Of a stretch of DNA of 53,873 nucleotides, positions 27,821 to 48,521 are shown in pieces; positions within the stretch are counted from its first letter, which is position 1, and every line of letters begins with the position of its first letter. Origin of the DNA: Halococcus hamelinensis 100A6 (lineage in GTDB: Archaea; Halobacteriota; Halobacteria; Halobacteriales; Halococcaceae); contig NZ_AOMB01000022.1 of NCBI RefSeq assembly GCF_000336675.1, positions 1-53,873 of the forward strand. Direction: 5' to 3'. The notes under the pieces are model-generated. The model was not told where the DNA came from and made no database searches. It saw only the letters and a list, made by a program, of their open reading frames with translations. The translations under genes and the position numbers were made by a program.

Positions 27821-28570
27821 TTACCCGAGGTCGGTCTCCTCGCCGTCGACGTAGACCGAGACGTTGCCGTCGGCCTCGAAGCTCGTGATCTCGCCGGTGA
27901 TGTGGTAGGCGTCGCCGCCGCCGCCGAGCCGTCCGTCGACCGTCGACCCGCTGATGACGTCGATGTCGGGGTCCTGGGTCACGCCGCTGTCGTCGATCGG
28001 CGCGCCGTAGCTCTCACCGCGGCGTTCTATCGACCCCGAGACCGTCAGCTGGTAGGTCACCCTGTCCTCCACGGACCCGCCGATGAGGACGACGTCGTGC
28101 TCCTCCTGCGGGGTGGTCTCCGTCGTGGTCGGTGTCTCGGTCGATGTCGCGGTCGGAGTTGCCGTCGAGGTCGGTGTCGGTGTTTCCGTCGGTGTCGGCG
28201 TCGGCGTTGCCGTCGTGGTCGGGGTTGGTGTTGGAGTGGCCGTCGGTGTTGGCGTGGCCGTCGGCGTCGATGTCGCGGTCGGGGTTGGCGTCGCGGTGGC
28301 CGTCGCCGTCGCGGTCGACGTTGCAGTGGACGTCGCCGTAGACGTCGCGGTGTCCGTCGCGGTCGAACCGGCGGTCGTCGTCGATGCCTCCGTCGTGGTG
28401 TTCGCCGCCGGCGCGCTGGTCGGCGAACTCGTCGCGGTTCCCGTCCCGTTTCCGGATCCACCGGCAGTCGGAGCCGGTGTCTGGTCCGCGGGTGCCGACG
28501 CGAGCTGTGAGCACCCCGCGAGTAACAGCAGCGCGACACACACGACGGCGATGACGGCTCGTTGCCTCAT
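27821..28570 (-). CDS. Thr/Pro-rich lipoprotein with a small C-terminal beta domain
   Basis: The 249-residue protein has a signal peptide with lipobox LLAGC near residues 16-20. About 120 residues of Thr, Ala, Pro and Ser follow as TATST and TPTPT repeats, and a C-terminal domain of about 90 residues (EHDVVLIGGSVEDRVTYQLTVSGSIERRG ... ITSFEADGNVSVYVDGEE). The repeat part is a spacer that lifts the C-terminal domain above the membrane. The DNA under it is a long imperfect tandem repeat on the 3-9-base scale (about 28130-28400) and may be prone to length change. Function unknown. Confidence 0.8.
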   Translation of the reverse strand: MRQRAVIAVVCVALLLLAGCSQLASAPADQTPAPTAGGSGNGTGTATSSPTSAPAANTTTEASTTTAGSTATDTATSTATSTATSTATATATATPTPTATSTPTATPTPTATPTPTPTTTATPTPTPTETPTPTSTATPTATSTETPTTTETTPQEEHDVVLIGGSVEDRVTYQLTVSGSIERRGESYGAPIDDSGVTQDPDIDVISGSTVDGRLGGGGDAYHITGEITSFEADGNVSVYVDGEETDLG

Positions 28571-37853: not shown

Positions 37854-39200
37854 ATGGAGCGGATCGATGTTGCGGTCGTCGGTGGTGGACCCGCCGGAAG
37901 CTCGGCGGGGCGAGCCGCGGCCAGGCAGGGAGCCGAGACGGTGGTGCTCGAAAAGGGGGTCCCGCGCGAGGACCGCGACCGCCCGGGGCCGGACTCGACC
38001 GACGCCGCCGGGATGCTCGACTACTGGGTCGACCTGATGGACCTCCCCGAACCGGTCCCCGACGACGTGATCCTCCGGGAGCTCGACGGCGCGACCTTCG
38101 CGGGGCCCACAGAACGGATCACCATCCGGGAGACGGGCATGAAGAGTTCGTACCCGAACTTCGGGTTCACCTTCCACCGCGCGCGCTTCGACGACTGGCT
38201 CCGCGAGCGCTGTGAGGCCGCGGGCGCGGAGTATCGCGTCGGCAAGAGCGTCCGAAACGTCGACGTCGACCCCCGGGGTGGACACGTCCTCACGCTCGCG
38301 AACGGTCACGAGATCGAGGCCGAATACCTGATCCTCGCCGACGGGCCACAGCGTACCGTCACGAGAGGCGTGCTCTCGGAGTTCGTCGGCGAGAGTCGAT
38401 TGGAGGGGCTCTCCTCGCGCCGGGCGAACCACATCGCCTATCAGGAATATCGGGAGTTTCCGCCCGAACTCTTCCCCGAGGACCGGATCGTCTTCTGGTG
38501 GGGAGCGATGCCCGGCCACACCGCCTACCCGTGGGTGTTCCCGAACGACGGCAACGTCGCGCGCGTGGGGCTGACGATGCCGATCGGGCTCGACATCGAC
38601 GCGGTCGAGAACCGGGAGGACTATCGACTCCTCGAACCCGACGACGACTCGATCCCCTCGGGTTCGGAGTACATCCGCCGACTTCTCGAGAGCGAGTACC
38701 CCGACTACGACCTCGAGGACTTCCCGATCGTCGAGGACCGTGGGAAGCGAAAGGGCGTCGAGTCCTACCCGATCTCCTCGACGAAGCCGATCGACTCCCC
38801 CGTCGGCGCGAAGGTCGCCGTCGCGGGCGGTGCGATGGGCACCACCTCCGCGTTCCACGAGGGTGGCGACCACGTCGCGGTGCGGACGGGGAAGATCGCG
38901 GGTTCGCTCGCCGGCGCGGGCGCGCTCTCGGCCTACAACCGCGAGTGGAAGCGCGCGGTCGGCGACGAACTCGGGCGGAACGTCGCGATGGCCGACGTGG
39001 TCGGCGGGTTCGGGCCCGACGACTGGGACCGGACCTTCGGGGCGGTCGGTCGGATGATGAAGGACGGGCGGTACAGCCCGCTGCGCGTGCCGCGGGCGGG
39101 GCGTGCGGGGCTGTCGGTGTTCGCGAAGTACGAACGCGCCCGGCTCGGCTACCGCAACGGCGGTTACGTCCAGATCGAGGAGTCGGAGTACGCGATATGA
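37854..39200 (+). CDS. FAD-dependent oxidoreductase of the geranylgeranyl reductase family
   Basis: The 448-residue protein opens with IDVAVVGGGPAGSSAGRAAARQGAETVVLEKG, the dinucleotide fold of the GGR family. HRARFDDWLRERCEAAGAEYRVG and LILADGPQRTVTRG follow, then VAVAGGAMGTTSAFHEGGDHVAVRTGKIAGSLA as the second FAD-binding block. Family members saturate isoprenoid chains of archaeal lipids or quinones. It differs from the canonical archaeal lipid reductase by its YW-rich middle, so the substrate is open. Its TGA (39198-39200) runs straight into an IS200/IS605-like end, and the end of the protein could have been set by that insertion. Confidence 0.82.
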   Translation: MERIDVAVVGGGPAGSSAGRAAARQGAETVVLEKGVPREDRDRPGPDSTDAAGMLDYWVDLMDLPEPVPDDVILRELDGATFAGPTERITIRETGMKSSYPNFGFTFHRARFDDWLRERCEAAGAEYRVGKSVRNVDVDPRGGHVLTLANGHEIEAEYLILADGPQRTVTRGVLSEFVGESRLEGLSSRRANHIAYQEYREFPPELFPEDRIVFWWGAMPGHTAYPWVFPNDGNVARVGLTMPIGLDIDAVENREDYRLLEPDDDSIPSGSEYIRRLLESEYPDYDLEDFPIVEDRGKRKGVESYPISSTKPIDSPVGAKVAVAGGAMGTTSAFHEGGDHVAVRTGKIAGSLAGAGALSAYNREWKRAVGDELGRNVAMADVVGGFGPDDWDRTFGAVGRMMKDGRYSPLRVPRAGRAGLSVFAKYERARLGYRNGGYVQIEESEYAI

Positions 39201-39236
39201 CATCCTCCCCGCCGTGAAACGGCAGGGTTTCCCTTC
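39198..39236 (-). mobile_element. Degenerate solo end of an IS200/IS605 (IS1341-type tnpB) element
   Basis: TGACATCCTCCCC followed by a GCCGT-GAA-ACGGC hairpin and AGGGTTTCCC reads, on the minus strand, as the GGGAAACCC ... GGGGAGGATGTCA right end I associate with haloarchaeal tnpB elements. The stem CCCCGCCGT/ACGGCAGGG carries one mismatch, a sign of decay. No tnpA or tnpB frame is found to its right, so this is a remnant. The call is from memory of such ends, not a search. Confidence 0.5.
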
Positions 39237-39461
39237 CGAGGTGGGATATTATAGTTCGCAGTCCATCTGTTCACGCGGGAGAAAATCTCCTCGCGCTTTG
39301 TCGGCCTACCGCCTCGGCACGGGATTCTCTCGCTGAATTAAGATAGCAAAGGGATTTGAGGTGGCGGCGGCAAGGACCCCTGCACGCCGTTGTCCCCGCC
39401 CGAGCACGTCCACACGGGCGCGATGACGCGCGGCGAACCCCGGCGTGCGATAGTCGGTACT

Positions 39462-39611
39462 GGTTGCGCGTCGCGCAACCGAACCTGGAACCGGCGGAAG
39501 CCGGTGACACGGGGTGCGCATAGCGCACCCGAACGTGGAGTCGGCGGAAGCCGACGACACAGGTCGTGCATCGCACGACCGAACGCGAGGCCGGCACGCG
39601 CCGGCCGAGGA
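39462..39611. repeat. Three tandem 50-bp units, each with two co-varying hairpins
   Basis: Units begin at 39462, 39512 and 39562. In each, stem 1 is 8 bp with a 3-base loop: GGTTGCGC/GCGCAACC, GGGTGCGC/GCGCACCC, GGTCGTGC/GCACGACC. After GAAC plus five bases, stem 2 is 6 bp with a 4-base loop: ACCGGC/GCCGGT, GTCGGC/GCCGAC, GCCGGC/GCCGGC. All positions align exactly at 50-base spacing. Paired bases change together between units, so pairing is being kept while sequence drifts. This resembles REP/BIME-type elements or a structured RNA. Confidence 0.85.
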
Positions 39612-39682
39612 TGGTCGCCGACGACCCGCCCGGCATAGGGTTTTCCGGCCGAGACGGCACACCGCCCGCGATGAGGCCGGTG

Positions 39683-39721
39683 GTTAGTGTTCCGGGCGAC
39701 ACTCCACTAACAGTAGCGAAC
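39683..39721. repeat. Inverted repeat GTTAGTG...CACTAAC
   Basis: Exact 7-bp arms at 39683-39689 and 39715-39721 enclose 25 bases that also contain AGTGT/ACACT. It could be the far boundary of the mosaic or an operator for the downstream nuclease gene. Confidence 0.4.
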
Positions 39722-39881
39722 GGCTCGTCACTTCTCGAAAGGGCGGCCCACGACGTGTTTTCCGCCGACCACCCGTCCGTTGGCGTGTGCGTTACTCCCA
39801 GCAGCGGGCAGGGCGGACGTCCACGTGGAGCCACGCTCAAGTCGTTCCCGCCCGAAGACGGAACGAGTTCACCTCCCCGCC

Positions 39882-41342
39882 ATGCCCCACGCTCACTCGA
39901 CGGCGAAACTGCTCGTCATCCCCTCCGTGGTCGCGCTCCAGTTCTCACCACCGGAGTTCGAGGACGCGCTCTCGTACTTCGAACCGGACGCCCTCCTCGT
40001 CCTCGGTCCCCGGGAACACGCCTACACGACGGTTGCCTTCGACCACCTCACCGACGACTCCGTCCCCGTCGTGTTCGACCCGCTCGACGCCTCCCTCCCC
40101 GACGACTACCGAGCGTTCACGTCGAACGGCGTCGACGTGGTCTTCGCGAACACCACCGCCGATATCGAATCCCTCCACGAGGGTGAGACGGATGGTTCGC
40201 TCGATTCCGACACGGAGACCTACGTCGTGAGCGGACTCCTCGATATCGATATCGATACCGACGCGCTTTCGACCACCCTCACCGGTCGATCCGAATACCG
40301 GAGAGCACTCTCACCGAGCGAGCGTGACGGGTCGTACACGCATCTGGTCACGAGGATCGAGGCCGGCTACGCCTACACCTGGGACGACCTCCGGGTCCGC
40401 GGCATCGGCCTCCAGGACGGGGCTGGATTGCCGCCGCTGACCTGCTTCACACTCGATACAGCGGGGCACACGACGGCCGAGTCACTCGATCCCGGCAAAC
40501 TGGGGCTTCGCGCCATCCACGGCGTCGGGCCGACGACCGAGGACCGACTCCGAACGGCGGGGCTCTCCACCACCGACGACATCGCCACCACGCCCGTCGA
40601 GGAGTTGGCCGAGATCAGGGGTATCGGCCCGAGGACGGGCGAGACGATCCGCTCGAACGCGCGGGCGTTCTCGGAGGGGCGGGTCATCCGAACCAGCGAG
40701 ACGCCGCTTCCGGGTCGGGACCCCGTCTTCATCGATATCGAGACGGACGGGCTCAACCCGACGATCGCGTGGCTGATCGGCGTGCAGGACGGCATCGACG
40801 GCGACTACGTCTCGTTCGTCCAGCCCGACCCGGACGACCCGGGGAAAGCGGTTCGTGCGTTCGTGCGCTGGTACACGGCGAACGCTTCCGATCGGACGCT
40901 CATCGCGTGGAACGGCTGGAACTTCGACTTTCCCGTCCTCCGGGAGCAGATCACCGCCCACTGTCCACAGCATCTCGACGCCTGGAAACGCGCCTCGAAA
41001 CGCGACCCGCTTCGATGGGCCCGCGACCACGACAACGCCGTCCTCCCCGGTCGAACGAACAAACTCGAACACGTCGCCGGCGCGCTCGGCTGGGAGCACG
41101 ACGACACGGGCCTCTCGGGGGCCGCCGTCGGGCGCGCCTACCGCCGCTGGATGGAGACCAGGCGTCCGGACGACGAACTCGACTGGGAGCGCCACGAGCG
41201 CTACTGCGAGGACGACGTCCGCTCGCTCGCGTTCATCTACGAGGCGATGCGTGAGGCGAACCGGCTCGCGGCGACGAACGACGATCGGTCCCAGCCAGTC
41301 GGTGAAACCACTGAACAGGGTACCCTCGGGGACATCTACTGA
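39882..41342 (+). CDS. DEDDy exonuclease with helix-hairpin-helix motifs (YprB/MrfB-like)
   Basis: The 486-residue protein has three parts. Residues 1-200 are an uncharacterised alpha/beta region. About 205-265 are two helix-hairpin-helix motifs (LRAIHGVGPTTEDRLRTAG and LAEIRGIGPRTGETIRS) that bind DNA backbone. About 280-460 form an RNase-H-like 3'-5' exonuclease with FIDIETD (D285, E287), NFDFP (D349) and YCEDD (Y441, D445), making the DEDDy metal site. B. subtilis YprB/MrfB is the closest described relative by domain. It is paired with a YprA/MrfA-like helicase 570 bases downstream, which supports a repair role. Confidence 0.85.
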   Translation: MPHAHSTAKLLVIPSVVALQFSPPEFEDALSYFEPDALLVLGPREHAYTTVAFDHLTDDSVPVVFDPLDASLPDDYRAFTSNGVDVVFANTTADIESLHEGETDGSLDSDTETYVVSGLLDIDIDTDALSTTLTGRSEYRRALSPSERDGSYTHLVTRIEAGYAYTWDDLRVRGIGLQDGAGLPPLTCFTLDTAGHTTAESLDPGKLGLRAIHGVGPTTEDRLRTAGLSTTDDIATTPVEELAEIRGIGPRTGETIRSNARAFSEGRVIRTSETPLPGRDPVFIDIETDGLNPTIAWLIGVQDGIDGDYVSFVQPDPDDPGKAVRAFVRWYTANASDRTLIAWNGWNFDFPVLREQITAHCPQHLDAWKRASKRDPLRWARDHDNAVLPGRTNKLEHVAGALGWEHDDTGLSGAAVGRAYRRWMETRRPDDELDWERHERYCEDDVRSLAFIYEAMREANRLAATNDDRSQPVGETTEQGTLGDIY

Positions 41343-41911: not shown

Positions 41912-44245
41912 ATGAGTGACAGCCAGAACCCCGACGCAAACTCGCTCGCGAGGACCTACCCCCGCTACGCCGGGCAGGTCGCCCACGACCACACCCAGCC
42001 CGCCGCCGACGCCGAGACGGTTCCCGCCGCCGACGTGCTCGAACCCGGGCTCGCGGACCGACTCCCGCACGACCTCTACACCCACCAGGCCGAAGCCCTC
42101 TCGCTGCTCGAAGCTGGCGAGAACGTCTGTGTCGCGACGTCGACGTCCTCGGGAAAGACGTTCGTCTACGGGCTGCACATCGCTCGCCAGCACTACCGAG
42201 GCGAGGACTCGACGGCACTCCTGGTCTATCCCACGAAAGCGCTCAGCCGCGACCAGAAGCAAGCGTTGGACGAACTCTACGCCACACTGGGGCTGGACAT
42301 CGACGTCGCCGTCTACGACGGGGACACCCCGTCGAACGAACGTCGGCGCATCCGCGAGGGGTCGGACGTCGTCATCAGCAACTTCTCCGGGGTGAACGTC
42401 TACCTCTCCGACCACGCGCTCTGGGCGGAGTTTCACGCACGATTGCACCTCGTCGCGATCGACGAGAGCCACTCCTATACGGGGATCCAGGGGATGCACG
42501 TCGCGTGGGTGATCCGCCGTCTCTGGCGCGTTCTCGATAGGTACGACGCGGACCCACAGGTGACCCTCACCTCCGCGACCATCGGTAACCCGAAAGAACA
42601 CGCCGAATCGCTCACGGCGAAAACGGTCCGGGTCGTCGACGAGGACGGCTCGCCGCACGGCGAACGCGAGATCGTCTTCTGGGACCCGCCCACCGAGACC
42701 GACGAGAACGGCGAGGAGGTCAAGCGGTCGGCCGACGAGGAGGCCAGCGACGTCCTCGCTCACCTCGCCGACCGGGACCTCCAGACGCTGATGTTCACCC
42801 GGTCGCGAAAGCAGACCGAACTCGACGCGCGCCGGGTCCGGAACGCCGACGAGGACCTCGTTTCGACCGGCAGGCTCGACGTCGAAGCCTACAACGCCGG
42901 CCACGGGAAGGACACCCGACGACAGACCGAAGATAGACTCAAGAGCGGGAAACTCGACGGTATCGTCTCGACCAACGCCCTCGAACTCGGTATCGACATC
43001 GGGAGCGTCGACGCGACGATACTCACCGGCTACCCGGGAACCCGCCAGTCGTTCTGGCAGCAGGTCGGCCGCTCGGGGCGCGGGCTCTCGGATGCGCTGG
43101 GCGTCTTCGTCGCGAACTACGACTCCATCGACCAGTACATCCTCGACCACCCGGAGTACATCCTCGGCGACACCATCGAGGACGCGGTGGTCGACACCAC
43201 GAACGATCCCGTCTACGCACGGCATCTCCTCTGTGCCGCCGAGGAGATCCCGCTCACCCACGACGACGGCCGGTGGTTCGGCGACGAACGCCTCGAACGC
43301 GCCGTCGAGATGTGGCGTCGCGCCGGGCGGATGGTCGGCCGCCTCGAATCCGGTGTCCAGTACGACGGCCCGCACCGCCCGCAGATGGACATCTCGATGT
43401 ACGCGACGCAGAGCGAGCAGTTCGAGGTTCGGATCGAAAACGGCGACATCGACATGGAACCCATCGACAGGGTTCGCGCCTATCGGGACTTCCACGAGGG
43501 GGCCGTCCACCTGCACAAGGGGACCGAATACGAGATCGTCGAGCTGAACGAGGAGGGTGCCCACCCGTACGTCCTTCTGGAACGGACGAACGCGAACTAC
43601 TACACCCGGACCCTCTCGGAGATCACCATCGGCGATCTCGACCGACAGGACTCGCGTGCCCTCGGGAACGATATCGTGCTCTGCTACGGCGAGGCGACGG
43701 TCACCGTCGACTACTACGCCTACAAGAAGATCGAGTACGGCCGAGGGGATGGTGGCCTCCAGATCCCGACGGGGCTCGACCCGATCGAGATGCGGACCCA
43801 GCTCGTGTGGGTGGCCTTCCCCGACGGAACGATGGACGACCTCGACGAGCGGACGGGGATGGACGTCGACCCGGAGGTGCTCCTCGGCGGGCTCCACGCC
43901 GCCGAACACGGGACGATCGGGATGGCACCGCTCGAACTCAGGTTGGACAAGGGCGACCTCGGCGGGCTCAGCCAGTGTCGACATCCGGAACTCGACGGGC
44001 CGGTCTGGTTCGTCTACGACGGTGTCGCCGGCGGACTGGGGTTCAGCCGCGCGATCTTCGATCACTACGAGACGATCGCGACGCACACCCGGGACATGAT
44101 CCGCGACTGTGACTGCGACGGTGAGGACGGCTGTCCGGCGTGCGTGATGGACAGCAACTGCGGCGACGACAACAGTCCGCTCCATCGCAGTATGGCGGTC
44201 GAGCTGCTGGAGCGGACCCTCCCCGAACGACCGACCCACCGCTGA
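41912..44245 (+). CDS. DEAD/H-box helicase with DUF1998 zinc domain (YprA/MrfA-like)
   Basis: The 777-residue superfamily 2 helicase has the Q-motif region YTHQAEALSLLEAGENV, Walker A TSTSSGKTF near residues 75-83, TKALSRDQ, DESH near 184-187 (instead of DEAH), SATIGN, then domain 2 with LELGIDIGSVDATILTGYPGTRQSFWQQVGRSGRG. The C-terminus is DUF1998 with four cysteines in CDCDGEDGCPACVMDSNCG (about 733-750) as a zinc site. This architecture is that of B. subtilis MrfA, a 3'-5' helicase acting with MrfB on mitomycin crosslinks. Archaeal homologues are known as Hrq1/YprA types. Confidence 0.92.
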   Translation: MSDSQNPDANSLARTYPRYAGQVAHDHTQPAADAETVPAADVLEPGLADRLPHDLYTHQAEALSLLEAGENVCVATSTSSGKTFVYGLHIARQHYRGEDSTALLVYPTKALSRDQKQALDELYATLGLDIDVAVYDGDTPSNERRRIREGSDVVISNFSGVNVYLSDHALWAEFHARLHLVAIDESHSYTGIQGMHVAWVIRRLWRVLDRYDADPQVTLTSATIGNPKEHAESLTAKTVRVVDEDGSPHGEREIVFWDPPTETDENGEEVKRSADEEASDVLAHLADRDLQTLMFTRSRKQTELDARRVRNADEDLVSTGRLDVEAYNAGHGKDTRRQTEDRLKSGKLDGIVSTNALELGIDIGSVDATILTGYPGTRQSFWQQVGRSGRGLSDALGVFVANYDSIDQYILDHPEYILGDTIEDAVVDTTNDPVYARHLLCAAEEIPLTHDDGRWFGDERLERAVEMWRRAGRMVGRLESGVQYDGPHRPQMDISMYATQSEQFEVRIENGDIDMEPIDRVRAYRDFHEGAVHLHKGTEYEIVELNEEGAHPYVLLERTNANYYTRTLSEITIGDLDRQDSRALGNDIVLCYGEATVTVDYYAYKKIEYGRGDGGLQIPTGLDPIEMRTQLVWVAFPDGTMDDLDERTGMDVDPEVLLGGLHAAEHGTIGMAPLELRLDKGDLGGLSQCRHPELDGPVWFVYDGVAGGLGFSRAIFDHYETIATHTRDMIRDCDCDGEDGCPACVMDSNCGDDNSPLHRSMAVELLERTLPERPTHR

Positions 44246-46253: not shown

Positions 46254-48521
46254 ATGTTCACGATGGGGAGAAGACTTCCACGACTCGGGATGGGGCCCGT
46301 CCTTGTTGCGTGTCTCATCGTCGTTCTCGGTACGACGATGATACCCGCTTTCGCGGCAGGAACCGGCAACCAGGCCGATATGACCGAACAGAACACGACG
46401 AACTGCGGCTGCGGTGCCGGTGAGGACAACGACGTCGTCGATATCGACGGCGACAACAACACCGTCGAGATCGTCATCAACGGCGAGACCGGCGAGGTCA
46501 GCGATATCACCACCGAACGTACCGGCGACGGCGGTGATTCGGGGGCCGACCCCGCCGATGATGGCGACAGCGCCGAAACCGACGAGAGCGCCAGCGTGGA
46601 CGTCACCGTCGACGACGGCGACGTTCGCGTCAACGGTCAGGACGTCGCGAACGAGGAGAACGACGGGATGAGCAACCAGGACGCGCGTGACTCCGTCACC
46701 CGGATCGTCACCAACGTCGAGGGGACCTCGGTCTCCAACGACGACATCGACCGGATCGTCGACGAGAACGACATCAACGGCGGCGACACCAGCGGTCTCA
46801 ACGTCGACGCGCTGGTCGAGGCGCTCAACGCGGCGGACGACGGGAGCGACGGTGCGGATGGTTCGGATGGAACCGACGGCACTGACGGTGCAGACGGCTC
46901 GGACGGTGCGGATGGAAGCGATGGCGACGATGGCACCGATGGCTCGGATGGAGCCGACGGTGCGGACGGAACGGACGGTACTGACGGTGCGGACGGAACG
47001 GATGGAACGGACGGCACTGACGGTGCGGACGGTGCAGACGATGCGGATGAAACGGACGGTACGGATGGAAGCGATGGCGATGACGGTGCGGACGGGACGG
47101 ACGGAACGGATGGAACGGACGGAAGCGATGACGGATCGGATACCGATGCACCGACCGACGATGGTTCGGACACCGACGACGGATCTGACACCGACGGCGG
47201 CGACGGCGACAACAGCCAGACCGTCGGCGACATTGACGACAGCACCCTGTTGCAGATCCTCCTCGACTTGGGTTACCTCGACCTGAGCGAGGTCAACACC
47301 GCGATCGAGGACAACTCGATCGACAACAGCACGATCGTCGACAACGCCGTCAACGGCGACCAGACGCTCAACCTGAACAGCATATACGTCGACAACAGTG
47401 TCACCAACATCGACAACAGCACGACGGTCACCCAGATCATCCAGAACTCGACGGTCGGTGACGGCTCCGGCAACGTCGACACTGGCGACGGCGACGCCGG
47501 CGACGGGGACGAAACCACCACGCCAGGGACGACTGACGGTGGGGACGGCGACGGTGCCCCCGACATCAGCGTCTCGAAGAGTACGGATACGGACGAAGTC
47601 GAGGTCAGTCTGCTCGACGGCGGCGGTATCCTGCAGGCGAACGAACCCGCGACGTTCACCGTGACGGTCACCAACGACGGGGACGCGACCGCCGATGACG
47701 TCGTGGTCAACGACGACGACGTGATCGCCGACATCGCGAACGACGACATCCTCGATACGACGGCGTTCCTCGTCACCGATTCGAGCACGAGTCAGGGCGA
47801 CTTCAGTGCCGCCACCGGCGACTTCGAGGTCGGGACGCTCGAACCGGGTGAGACCGCGACACTGACGTTCGACGCGCTCGCCGTCTCGGCGGATGCGGGT
47901 CTGCTCGACGGCTCGCTCGCCGAGCTCAACGCGACCAACGACGTCGAACTGACGTCCTCCTCGCCCGAGGACTCGAACGCCGACAACGACGCCGACAGCG
48001 CGACGATCACGCTGGTGAGCGCGCTCGACGGTGGGCTGACGGACGACCAGCTCGCCGCGCTGAACGACGCGTTCACCGACGCGCAAGTCGACGACCTCCA
48101 GGCCGAACTCACGACCGACCAGCTCGTGGCGCTGCTCGACTCGACGAGCGACCTGGAGCTCGCGTCCATCGGGGACGCGCTCAACAACGACGATACCACG
48201 GTTGAGGACCTCGGGAACGCGATCGACGGCGACGACCTCGATGGCTTCCTCGGTGGGCTCTCGGGCGGCGCATCGGCCGGTGCTAGCTCGGTCGACGACA
48301 CGTCCGAGAACGCCACCAACGCCACTGACAGCGATACCAACGCCAGCGACGACGCCACCACTGGATCCAGTACGGACGCTGGCACCGACGGAACGGCCGC
48401 CACGGCGACCACGGACACCCAGTCCGCGGTCGGCCCGCTCTCGACCGGCGGGCTCGCGGTCGGCGGCGTGACCCTGCTCGGACTCCTGGGGAGCGTCGTG
48501 CTCTTCAGAGAGAACCGGTAA
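46254..48521 (+). CDS. Large acidic surface protein with Gly-X-Asp triplet repeats and C-terminal anchor
   Basis: The 755-residue protein has a signal peptide (RRLPRLGMGPVLVACLIVVLG, cleavage near AFA). An acidic region follows, with four residues CGCG near 51-54, then about 32 Gly-X-Asp triplets (197-293) where X is Ser, Thr, Ala or Asp. An Asn/Asp-rich part with many NST sequons comes next (about 325-400), then a DUF11-like beta-sandwich (about 440-580) with FTVTVTNDGDATADDVVV. A linker leads to a final membrane helix GLAVGGVTLLGLLGSVVLF and REN tail. ATG 46263 is an alternative start. It is probably cell-wall exposed; function unknown. Confidence 0.85.
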   Translation: MFTMGRRLPRLGMGPVLVACLIVVLGTTMIPAFAAGTGNQADMTEQNTTNCGCGAGEDNDVVDIDGDNNTVEIVINGETGEVSDITTERTGDGGDSGADPADDGDSAETDESASVDVTVDDGDVRVNGQDVANEENDGMSNQDARDSVTRIVTNVEGTSVSNDDIDRIVDENDINGGDTSGLNVDALVEALNAADDGSDGADGSDGTDGTDGADGSDGADGSDGDDGTDGSDGADGADGTDGTDGADGTDGTDGTDGADGADDADETDGTDGSDGDDGADGTDGTDGTDGSDDGSDTDAPTDDGSDTDDGSDTDGGDGDNSQTVGDIDDSTLLQILLDLGYLDLSEVNTAIEDNSIDNSTIVDNAVNGDQTLNLNSIYVDNSVTNIDNSTTVTQIIQNSTVGDGSGNVDTGDGDAGDGDETTTPGTTDGGDGDGAPDISVSKSTDTDEVEVSLLDGGGILQANEPATFTVTVTNDGDATADDVVVNDDDVIADIANDDILDTTAFLVTDSSTSQGDFSAATGDFEVGTLEPGETATLTFDALAVSADAGLLDGSLAELNATNDVELTSSSPEDSNADNDADSATITLVSALDGGLTDDQLAALNDAFTDAQVDDLQAELTTDQLVALLDSTSDLELASIGDALNNDDTTVEDLGNAIDGDDLDGFLGGLSGGASAGASSVDDTSENATNATDSDTNASDDATTGSSTDAGTDGTAATATTDTQSAVGPLSTGGLAVGGVTLLGLLGSVVLFRENR
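46839..47139 (+). repeat. 9-bp-periodic tandem repeat coding (Gly-X-Asp)n
   Basis: About 33 degenerate copies of a 9-base unit (GGT/GGA-NNN-GAC/GAT) encode Gly-X-Asp. Synonymous variation between units and absence of spacers show this is a coding repeat rather than a CRISPR. Confidence 0.85.

Follow-up and report, generated by a model that had tools for sequence, protein, structure and literature searches.

Why should three adjacent 50-bp units, each able to fold into two hairpins, differ in their letters and still remain paired? The units lie in a stretch of 53,873 nucleotides from Halococcus hamelinensis 100A6, here called the window, and an earlier note made from the sequence alone had read them as three exact repeats in which the fold rather than the sequence is kept, proposing either a BIME-like element or a new structured noncoding RNA. 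Exactness holds for the period, which is 50 throughout and was detected independently by Tandem Repeats Finder, but not for the letters, as identity to unit 1 is 80% for unit 2 and 62% for unit 3. Likewise, the two hairpins per unit (8 bp with a 3-nt loop, 6 bp with a 4-nt loop) recur in all three, but the second stem of unit 3 has 7 bp, of which the inner 6 are in register with units 1 and 2. The stem sequences, the GGAA loops of units 1 and 2, and the GAAC that follows each first stem had all been read correctly. The array consists of:

39459-39508, + strand: unit 1, with hairpins at 39462-39480 (8 bp, 3-nt loop) and 39490-39505 (6 bp, 4-nt loop GGAA), GAAC between them
39509-39558, + strand: unit 2, with hairpins at 39512-39530 (8 bp, 3-nt loop) and 39540-39555 (6 bp, 4-nt loop GGAA; extended outward via a GA/GA 2x2 loop), GAAC between them
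39559-39608, + strand: unit 3, of a terminal type that recurs in other Halococcus, with hairpins at 39562-39580 (8 bp, 3-nt loop) and 39589-39606 (7 bp, 4-nt loop), GAAC between them

Two hairpin types alternate within these units: an A type of about 8 bp with a triloop, and a B type of about 6 bp plus loop, below which follow a symmetric 2x2 internal loop and an outer stem of 3-4 bp. In the window this internal loop is GA/GA and is clearest in unit 2. With six perfect hairpins in 175 nt (39450-39625), the array has the highest hairpin density of the 53.9 kb, non-overlapping segments of which hold at most three per 175 nt, and 2000 Markov-1 copies of the 300-nt segment around it averaged 0.57 hairpins, with a maximum of four. 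Such a density is beyond chance. Fold z-scores at the array are -5.5 (+ strand) and -3.6 (- strand), and conserved hairpins are found on both of its flanks.

The host RNA of the array

When positions 39200-39880 were searched with BLAST against 99 relatives, what proved conserved, across many haloarchaeal genera, were two boxes flanking the units, 39381-39454 and 39624-39701, and not the units themselves. The region was matched in 87 of the 99 relatives and in 36 of 42 genera, a count that takes in some matches to the end of a neighbouring insertion sequence. Judged by sequence and predicted fold, the three units are almost certainly part of a 173-nt linker inside an RNA of about 320 nt, a two-hairpin H/ACA guide for pseudouridylation. 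The predicted RNA and its immediate surroundings are laid out as follows:

39200-39347, - strand: outside the RNA, the two joined ends left over from a TnpB-type IS200/IS605 element, lying between the RNA promoter and the gene upstream
39354-39373, + strand: predicted promoter, with a weak TATA-like ATTTGA (39354-39359) and AA near -10
39381-39452, + strand: HP1, first H/ACA guide hairpin, from the 61-species alignment, fold and class-wide presence; its upper part holds a K-turn-like CGATGA
39381-39388 with 39442-39449, + strand: HP1 lower stem, TGCACGCC with GGCGTGCG
39392-39394, + strand: 5' guide of the HP1 pocket, GUC, pairing with the GAC after the Psi-A of the 23S target; at least 90% conserved
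39436-39440, + strand: 3' guide of the HP1 pocket, AACCC, pairing with the GGGUU before the target U; at least 90% conserved
39450-39452, + strand: ANA box of HP1, ATA, 14 nt from the pocket
39453-39625, + strand: variable linker between HP1 and HP2 holding the hairpin array, 173 nt
39613-39626, + strand: short last hairpin before HP2, GGTCG-CCGA-CGACC, from the centroid fold
39627-39701, + strand: HP2, second H/ACA guide hairpin, from the 61-species alignment and class-wide presence
39627-39633 with 39692-39698, + strand: HP2 lower stem, CGCCCGG with CCGGGCG
39637-39642, + strand: 5' guide of the HP2 pocket, AGGGUU, pairing with GACCCU (one G-U) in helix 69 of 23S rRNA; from conservation
39670-39674, + strand: K-turn-like GATGA of HP2
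39683-39686, + strand: 3' guide of the HP2 pocket, GUUA, pairing with the UAAC before the helix 69 target U; at least 90% conserved
39699-39701, + strand: ACA box of HP2, 16 nt from the pocket

Both flanking hairpins show the anatomy of H/ACA RNAs, with a lower stem, an internal pocket, an upper stem, and an ANA box 14-16 nt from the pocket (14 nt from the first base of the AACCC guide in HP1); Grosjean et al. 2008 (PMC2584109) give about 13-16 nt for this distance in archaea. Among the 61 aligned sequences the lower stems covary, one HP1 pair being GC in 37, AU in 14 and GU in 10, the pocket bases of both hairpins are at least 90% conserved, and an ANA box follows each lower stem in nearly all species. 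The GATGA motifs of both upper stems are conserved and stand where a K-turn is expected, an assignment that concerns the motif letters and leaves the non-canonical pairs aside.

The pockets also find their targets in the species' own 23S rRNA, where the pairing was made by eye from the printed sequences. GUC and AACCC of HP1 complement GGGUU-U-A-GAC in GCTGGGTTTAGACCG, the target GCTGGGTTTAGACC being the equivalent of Psi2621 of H. marismortui (E. coli 2586). AGGGUU and GUUA of HP2 complement UAAC-U-A-U-GACCCU in helix 69, GTAACTATGACCCTC, at the equivalent of Psi1956; moving the 3' guide by two (UAGU with ACUA) fits the next target U, so that Psi1958 is possible as well. In the species' own numbering, the target uridines are U1963, U1965 and U2629. 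By likeness to the H/ACA family, each guide hairpin would be the nucleus of one RNP, binding L7Ae, Nop10, Gar1 and Cbf5, the last of which would isomerise the target uridines. Guide-directed pseudouridylation is reported as validated for H. volcanii in work cited by PMC4652768.

The host RNA is already known, and the RNA family is not new. For H. volcanii and other halobacteria, Grosjean et al. 2008 (PMC2584109) predict an HP1 directed at 2621 and an HP2 directed at 1956 and 1958, the two being "separated by a long spacer", and in PMC4652768 Hvo1 targets L2621 and Hvo2 targets L1956/L1958, with a third target residue left unpaired, as it is here. Our RNA shares with these the order of the hairpins, the three 23S targets, the long spacer and the class-wide occurrence in Halobacteria; the likeness to the published HP1 and HP2 is one of target sites, layout and taxonomic range, not letter by letter. 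As such, the noncoding RNA proposed earlier does exist, on the + strand and with the array inside it, but its layout had been published, and the supposed gene-free mosaic around the units holds an RNA gene. We take this guide to be the one named sR-h45 in H. volcanii. The multi-hairpin H/ACA RNAs Pf7, Pab40 and Afu-4 of Thermococcales and Archaeoglobus are related, HP2 corresponding to stem III of Pf7 and HP1 apparently to stem II according to PMC2584109; their hairpins, however, are adjacent, without a hairpin array in between.

Distribution, promoter and neighbouring genes

Most of the 119 named loci, among them Haloferax, Halobacterium, Haloarcula, Natrialba, Halorubrum and Halococcus, have both guide hairpins in readable form, as do 60 relatives besides the window; the two-hairpin guide RNA is found throughout the haloarchaea sampled. 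It occurs twice on one scaffold in Haloquadratum walsbyi J07HQW1 (L123, L125) and in the uncultured archaeon A07HR67 (L202, L206). In Halorubrum tebenquichense DSM 14210 (L165) the sequencing-library adapter AGATGTGTATAAGAGACAG lies within the HP2 region, and the assembly is therefore probably faulty there. Four loci filed under Woesearchaeota/Nanoarchaeota (L117, L146, L192, L214) carry a well-formed HP2-like hairpin, GCCCGTCACGAGAGTACCC...GTTAGTGT.ACGGGCTACA, beside which no HP1 was found. At the gathering threshold Rfam gave no match in the window, nor at the guide RNA of five relatives. As all six scanned sequences thus escaped Rfam 15, the guide RNA will probably be overlooked when genomes are annotated. 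A weak match to che1 (E 1.2) was judged to be chance, and RNase P RNA and SRP RNA, without Rfam match at the locus, are both located elsewhere in the genome.

Aligned upstream regions of the 61 species have an A/T share of 0.85-0.98 at -38 to -36 relative to the GUC guide and a second peak of 0.84 and 0.72 at -21 and -20, and T-rich sequence follows immediately after the final ACA. Haloarchaeal promoters carry a -10 WW motif. The two peaks would fit a haloarchaeal TATA box and this WW motif, with transcription beginning where HP1 does (~39381), and we infer transcription, ends and processing of the guide RNA from such sequence features. The window's own TATA-like box is weak and adjoins the insertion sequence remnant; the arrival of this element may have substituted a weaker box for the usual TATA box. 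This remnant shows weak similarity to Rfam sot0042 (RF02656) at 39206-39256, its parts 39200-39303 and 39301-39347 have separate copies in relatives, and at its place the nearest relative (G006; locus L088) has about 1.35 kb with a TnpB-like ORF. The IS-like end seen earlier is thus real, but it consists of the ends of such an element only and is unrelated to the array.

Nor does the nuclease gene, taken earlier as context, belong to the feature: among 179 loci there is one in which it comes after the RNA, compared with 87 in which a gene for an FAD-dependent oxidoreductase (Pfam DAO/FAD_binding_3) is near the RNA, as it is upstream here, in a count where some loci are too short to show the upstream or downstream gene. 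On reading, this oxidoreductase is geranylgeranyl-reductase-like. The window further encodes, at 39882-41342 and 41912-44245, an RNase_H_2 nuclease with an HhH domain and a DEAD-box helicase with an MrfA zinc-binding domain, which resemble the MrfB/MrfA repair pair of bacteria. At 46843-47200 and 28122-28366 lie long tandem repeats of low complexity whose periods are divisible by three (GACGGTGCGGAC..., GTCGGGGTCGGT...); they are probably repetitive protein segments.

Variation of the linker in length, unit number and orientation

The earlier claim that the fold rather than the sequence is kept is borne out by the copies of the unit in relatives. Among 19 linker units from Halococcus and its relatives both stems are supported, 98.5% of cells are paired, and 8 of the 14 stem pairs have compensatory changes on both sides, a cell here being a sequence and not an evolutionary event. 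The covariation score is 0.354, compared with 0.187 for shuffled and at most 0.084 for slid alignments, and RNAalifold agrees.

Unit number is far less constant. Halococcus arrays contain one, two or three units, of which the last differs in kind from the inner ones and is termed terminal. In most arrays a single inner unit precedes the terminal one; in the window two inner units do so, and in the nearest relative G006, as in G005, the terminal unit stands alone. The linker accordingly measures 66 nt in G006 and 173 nt in the window, a difference of 107 nt that we read as two units and a further 7 nt. The 135 distinct linkers of at least 20 nt have a median length of 51 nt and a maximum of 324; the linker of L074 measures 6 nt, and in L040 and L094, with about 4 nt, HP1 is joined almost directly to HP2.

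Long linkers consist mostly of hairpins, about one per 31 nt. We counted 244 hairpins of at least 6 bp, where 67 were expected from Markov controls (maximum 84). Hairpins of the B type, defined by stems of at least 5 bp and at least 3 bp on either side of a symmetric 2x2 loop, numbered 39, where the controls gave 7.3 (maximum 14). The 2x2 loop is UC/UC in 17 of these 39 and GA/GA in 7, and the A/B alternation with such a loop recurs across families. For the linkers of at least 40 nt among the 61 species (n=39), the mean fold z-score is -3.9 and 31 fall below -2, the complete linker of the window (39453-39625) reaching -7.1. The linker of Haloferax profundi (L108) has an extra long imperfect palindrome of about 85 nt, AGCAGCGTTTGCAA...TTGCAAACGCTGCT, compared with two other Haloferax.

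The covariance-model search that the earlier note had proposed also brought out a reversal of orientation. In other families a model of the Halococcus unit matches the array at this very locus, the lowest E being 6.5e-11, but on the strand complementary to the RNA; within the Halococcus family every strong match has the strand of the RNA itself. The junction letters agree, as GAAC after a hairpin occurs 9 times, only within the Halococcus family, and GTTC before a hairpin 16 times, only outside it. Because hairpin stems read alike on both strands, which could produce a palindrome artefact, the control kept the stems and shuffled the unpaired letters 60 times. The non-Halococcaceae loci that scored above 8 bits, 11 in number, all did so on the strand opposite to the RNA. 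No shuffle matched the score of 9 of these loci; the score of L212 was reached once and that of L025 five times. The 11 Halococcaceae loci are all on the RNA strand by construction, since the training set of the model is included among them. At one and the same site, Halococcaceae thus carry the reverse complement of the arrays found in at least four other families, a difference for which an inversion between palindromic units on one lineage would be the simplest account.

Upkeep and role of the array

What, then, keeps the hairpins perfect? Guiding can evidently do without the array, since in some species next to nothing separates HP1 from HP2, and an array that is dispensable in this way is most likely a linker that is either constrained in its fold or maintains itself by mutation. 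We regard it as very probable that the array is a structured linker of the guide RNA that also serves as a spacer, a statement in which most of the weight is on identity. For the spacer mechanism by itself the chances seem about even: the array would fold on itself into a rod-like linker that separates the two guide modules and prevents pairing between them, with the hairpin fold retained while unit number, sequence and orientation can change freely. In the minimum-energy fold of the whole RNA, HP2 bases are pulled into pairs with the linker, and clean insulation is therefore not shown by thermodynamics alone. Furthermore, the loop and junction letters (GAAC, GA/GA) are kept more than a pure spacer needs, on opposite strands by family, for which the spacer idea has no account.

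The main rival, which we consider somewhat improbable, is that the array is kept at the DNA level without any function in the RNA. Palindromes would perfect themselves by template switching or quasi-palindrome correction, units would grow, shrink and flip by recombination between units, and the linker, being neutral, would be tolerated. The reversed orientation of the Halococcaceae array fits such an origin, as do linkers that can be absent, the rarity of G-U pairs in Halococcus units (2.4% of variable pairs), and the excess of double over one-sided changes (29 versus 5 cells). However, within the window such hairpin density is found only in this linker, and the A/B alternation with its 2x2 loop recurs across families. 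The G-U share, which is 6% in the arrays (about what chance hairpins alone give), 14.6% in HP1 and 3.3% in HP2, does not decide between the two, because HP2 is certainly constrained as RNA and nevertheless has few such pairs. An array that acts as a binding platform, its tandem GA/UC-loop hairpins recruiting L7Ae or another RNA- or DNA-binding protein for an extra RNP function, would explain the recurrent symmetric UC/UC and GA/GA loops as well as the conserved GAAC junction; we find it unlikely, as the copy number runs from zero to many, the strand of the motif is reversed between families, and K-turns require a bulge, which a symmetric GA/GA loop lacks.

A dispersed BIME/REP-like element that landed here by chance, in line with the earlier proposal, has hardly any probability left. 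Like bacterial BIME/REP elements, the array has tandem palindromic units with short junctions and a sequence that varies while its pairing is kept, and both orientations are known between families, but it differs from them in forming a single locus inside an RNA gene, constant across families and without dispersal. In the species' own genome, BLAST and the covariance model of the unit recovered the three units and no other convincing copy, the next, unrelated match having E=0.07. The best matches in 20 genomes of other families are mostly to the same locus, and those of the weaker matches elsewhere that were inspected look like coding sequence. Equally remote is a role as cis-regulatory leader of the downstream RNase_H_2 and MrfA-like pair, or as an independent regulatory sRNA. 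The region is structured and precedes the nuclease start by about 180 bp, but its conserved parts are accounted for by the guide pockets and ANA boxes, and as a leader it lacks synteny, the one locus with the nuclease after the RNA being that of the nearest relative.

Returning to the structured linker, one further idea, which we put forward with considerable doubt, is that the unit is kept in sequence, at its junction and internal loop, in opposite orientations between families, and so would work either way round. If so, the array would be a strand-symmetric RNA rod or have a function at the level of DNA or double strands, and it would represent a module undescribed for H/ACA RNAs in the literature searched.

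What is new here is the hairpin-array linker with its changing unit number and orientation. The literature searched makes no mention of a linker range of about 4-324 nt with hairpin-packed long linkers, of unit number changing between close relatives, or of a Halococcaceae array that is reverse-complementary to those of other families. Compared with the text of PMC2584109, which speaks only of "a long spacer", the hairpin content, the changes in unit number and the orientation are additions, and a class-wide alignment of the guide RNA is now supplied. H/ACA guide RNAs are usually pictured as compact, with only short linkers to their hairpins. The class-wide RNA described here tolerates linkers from about 4 to more than 300 nt, made of perfect hairpins whose number varies among close relatives and whose orientation varies among families. 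As such, these linkers provide a natural series for asking how an array of palindromes stays perfect, be it through selection on the RNA fold or through a mutational process.
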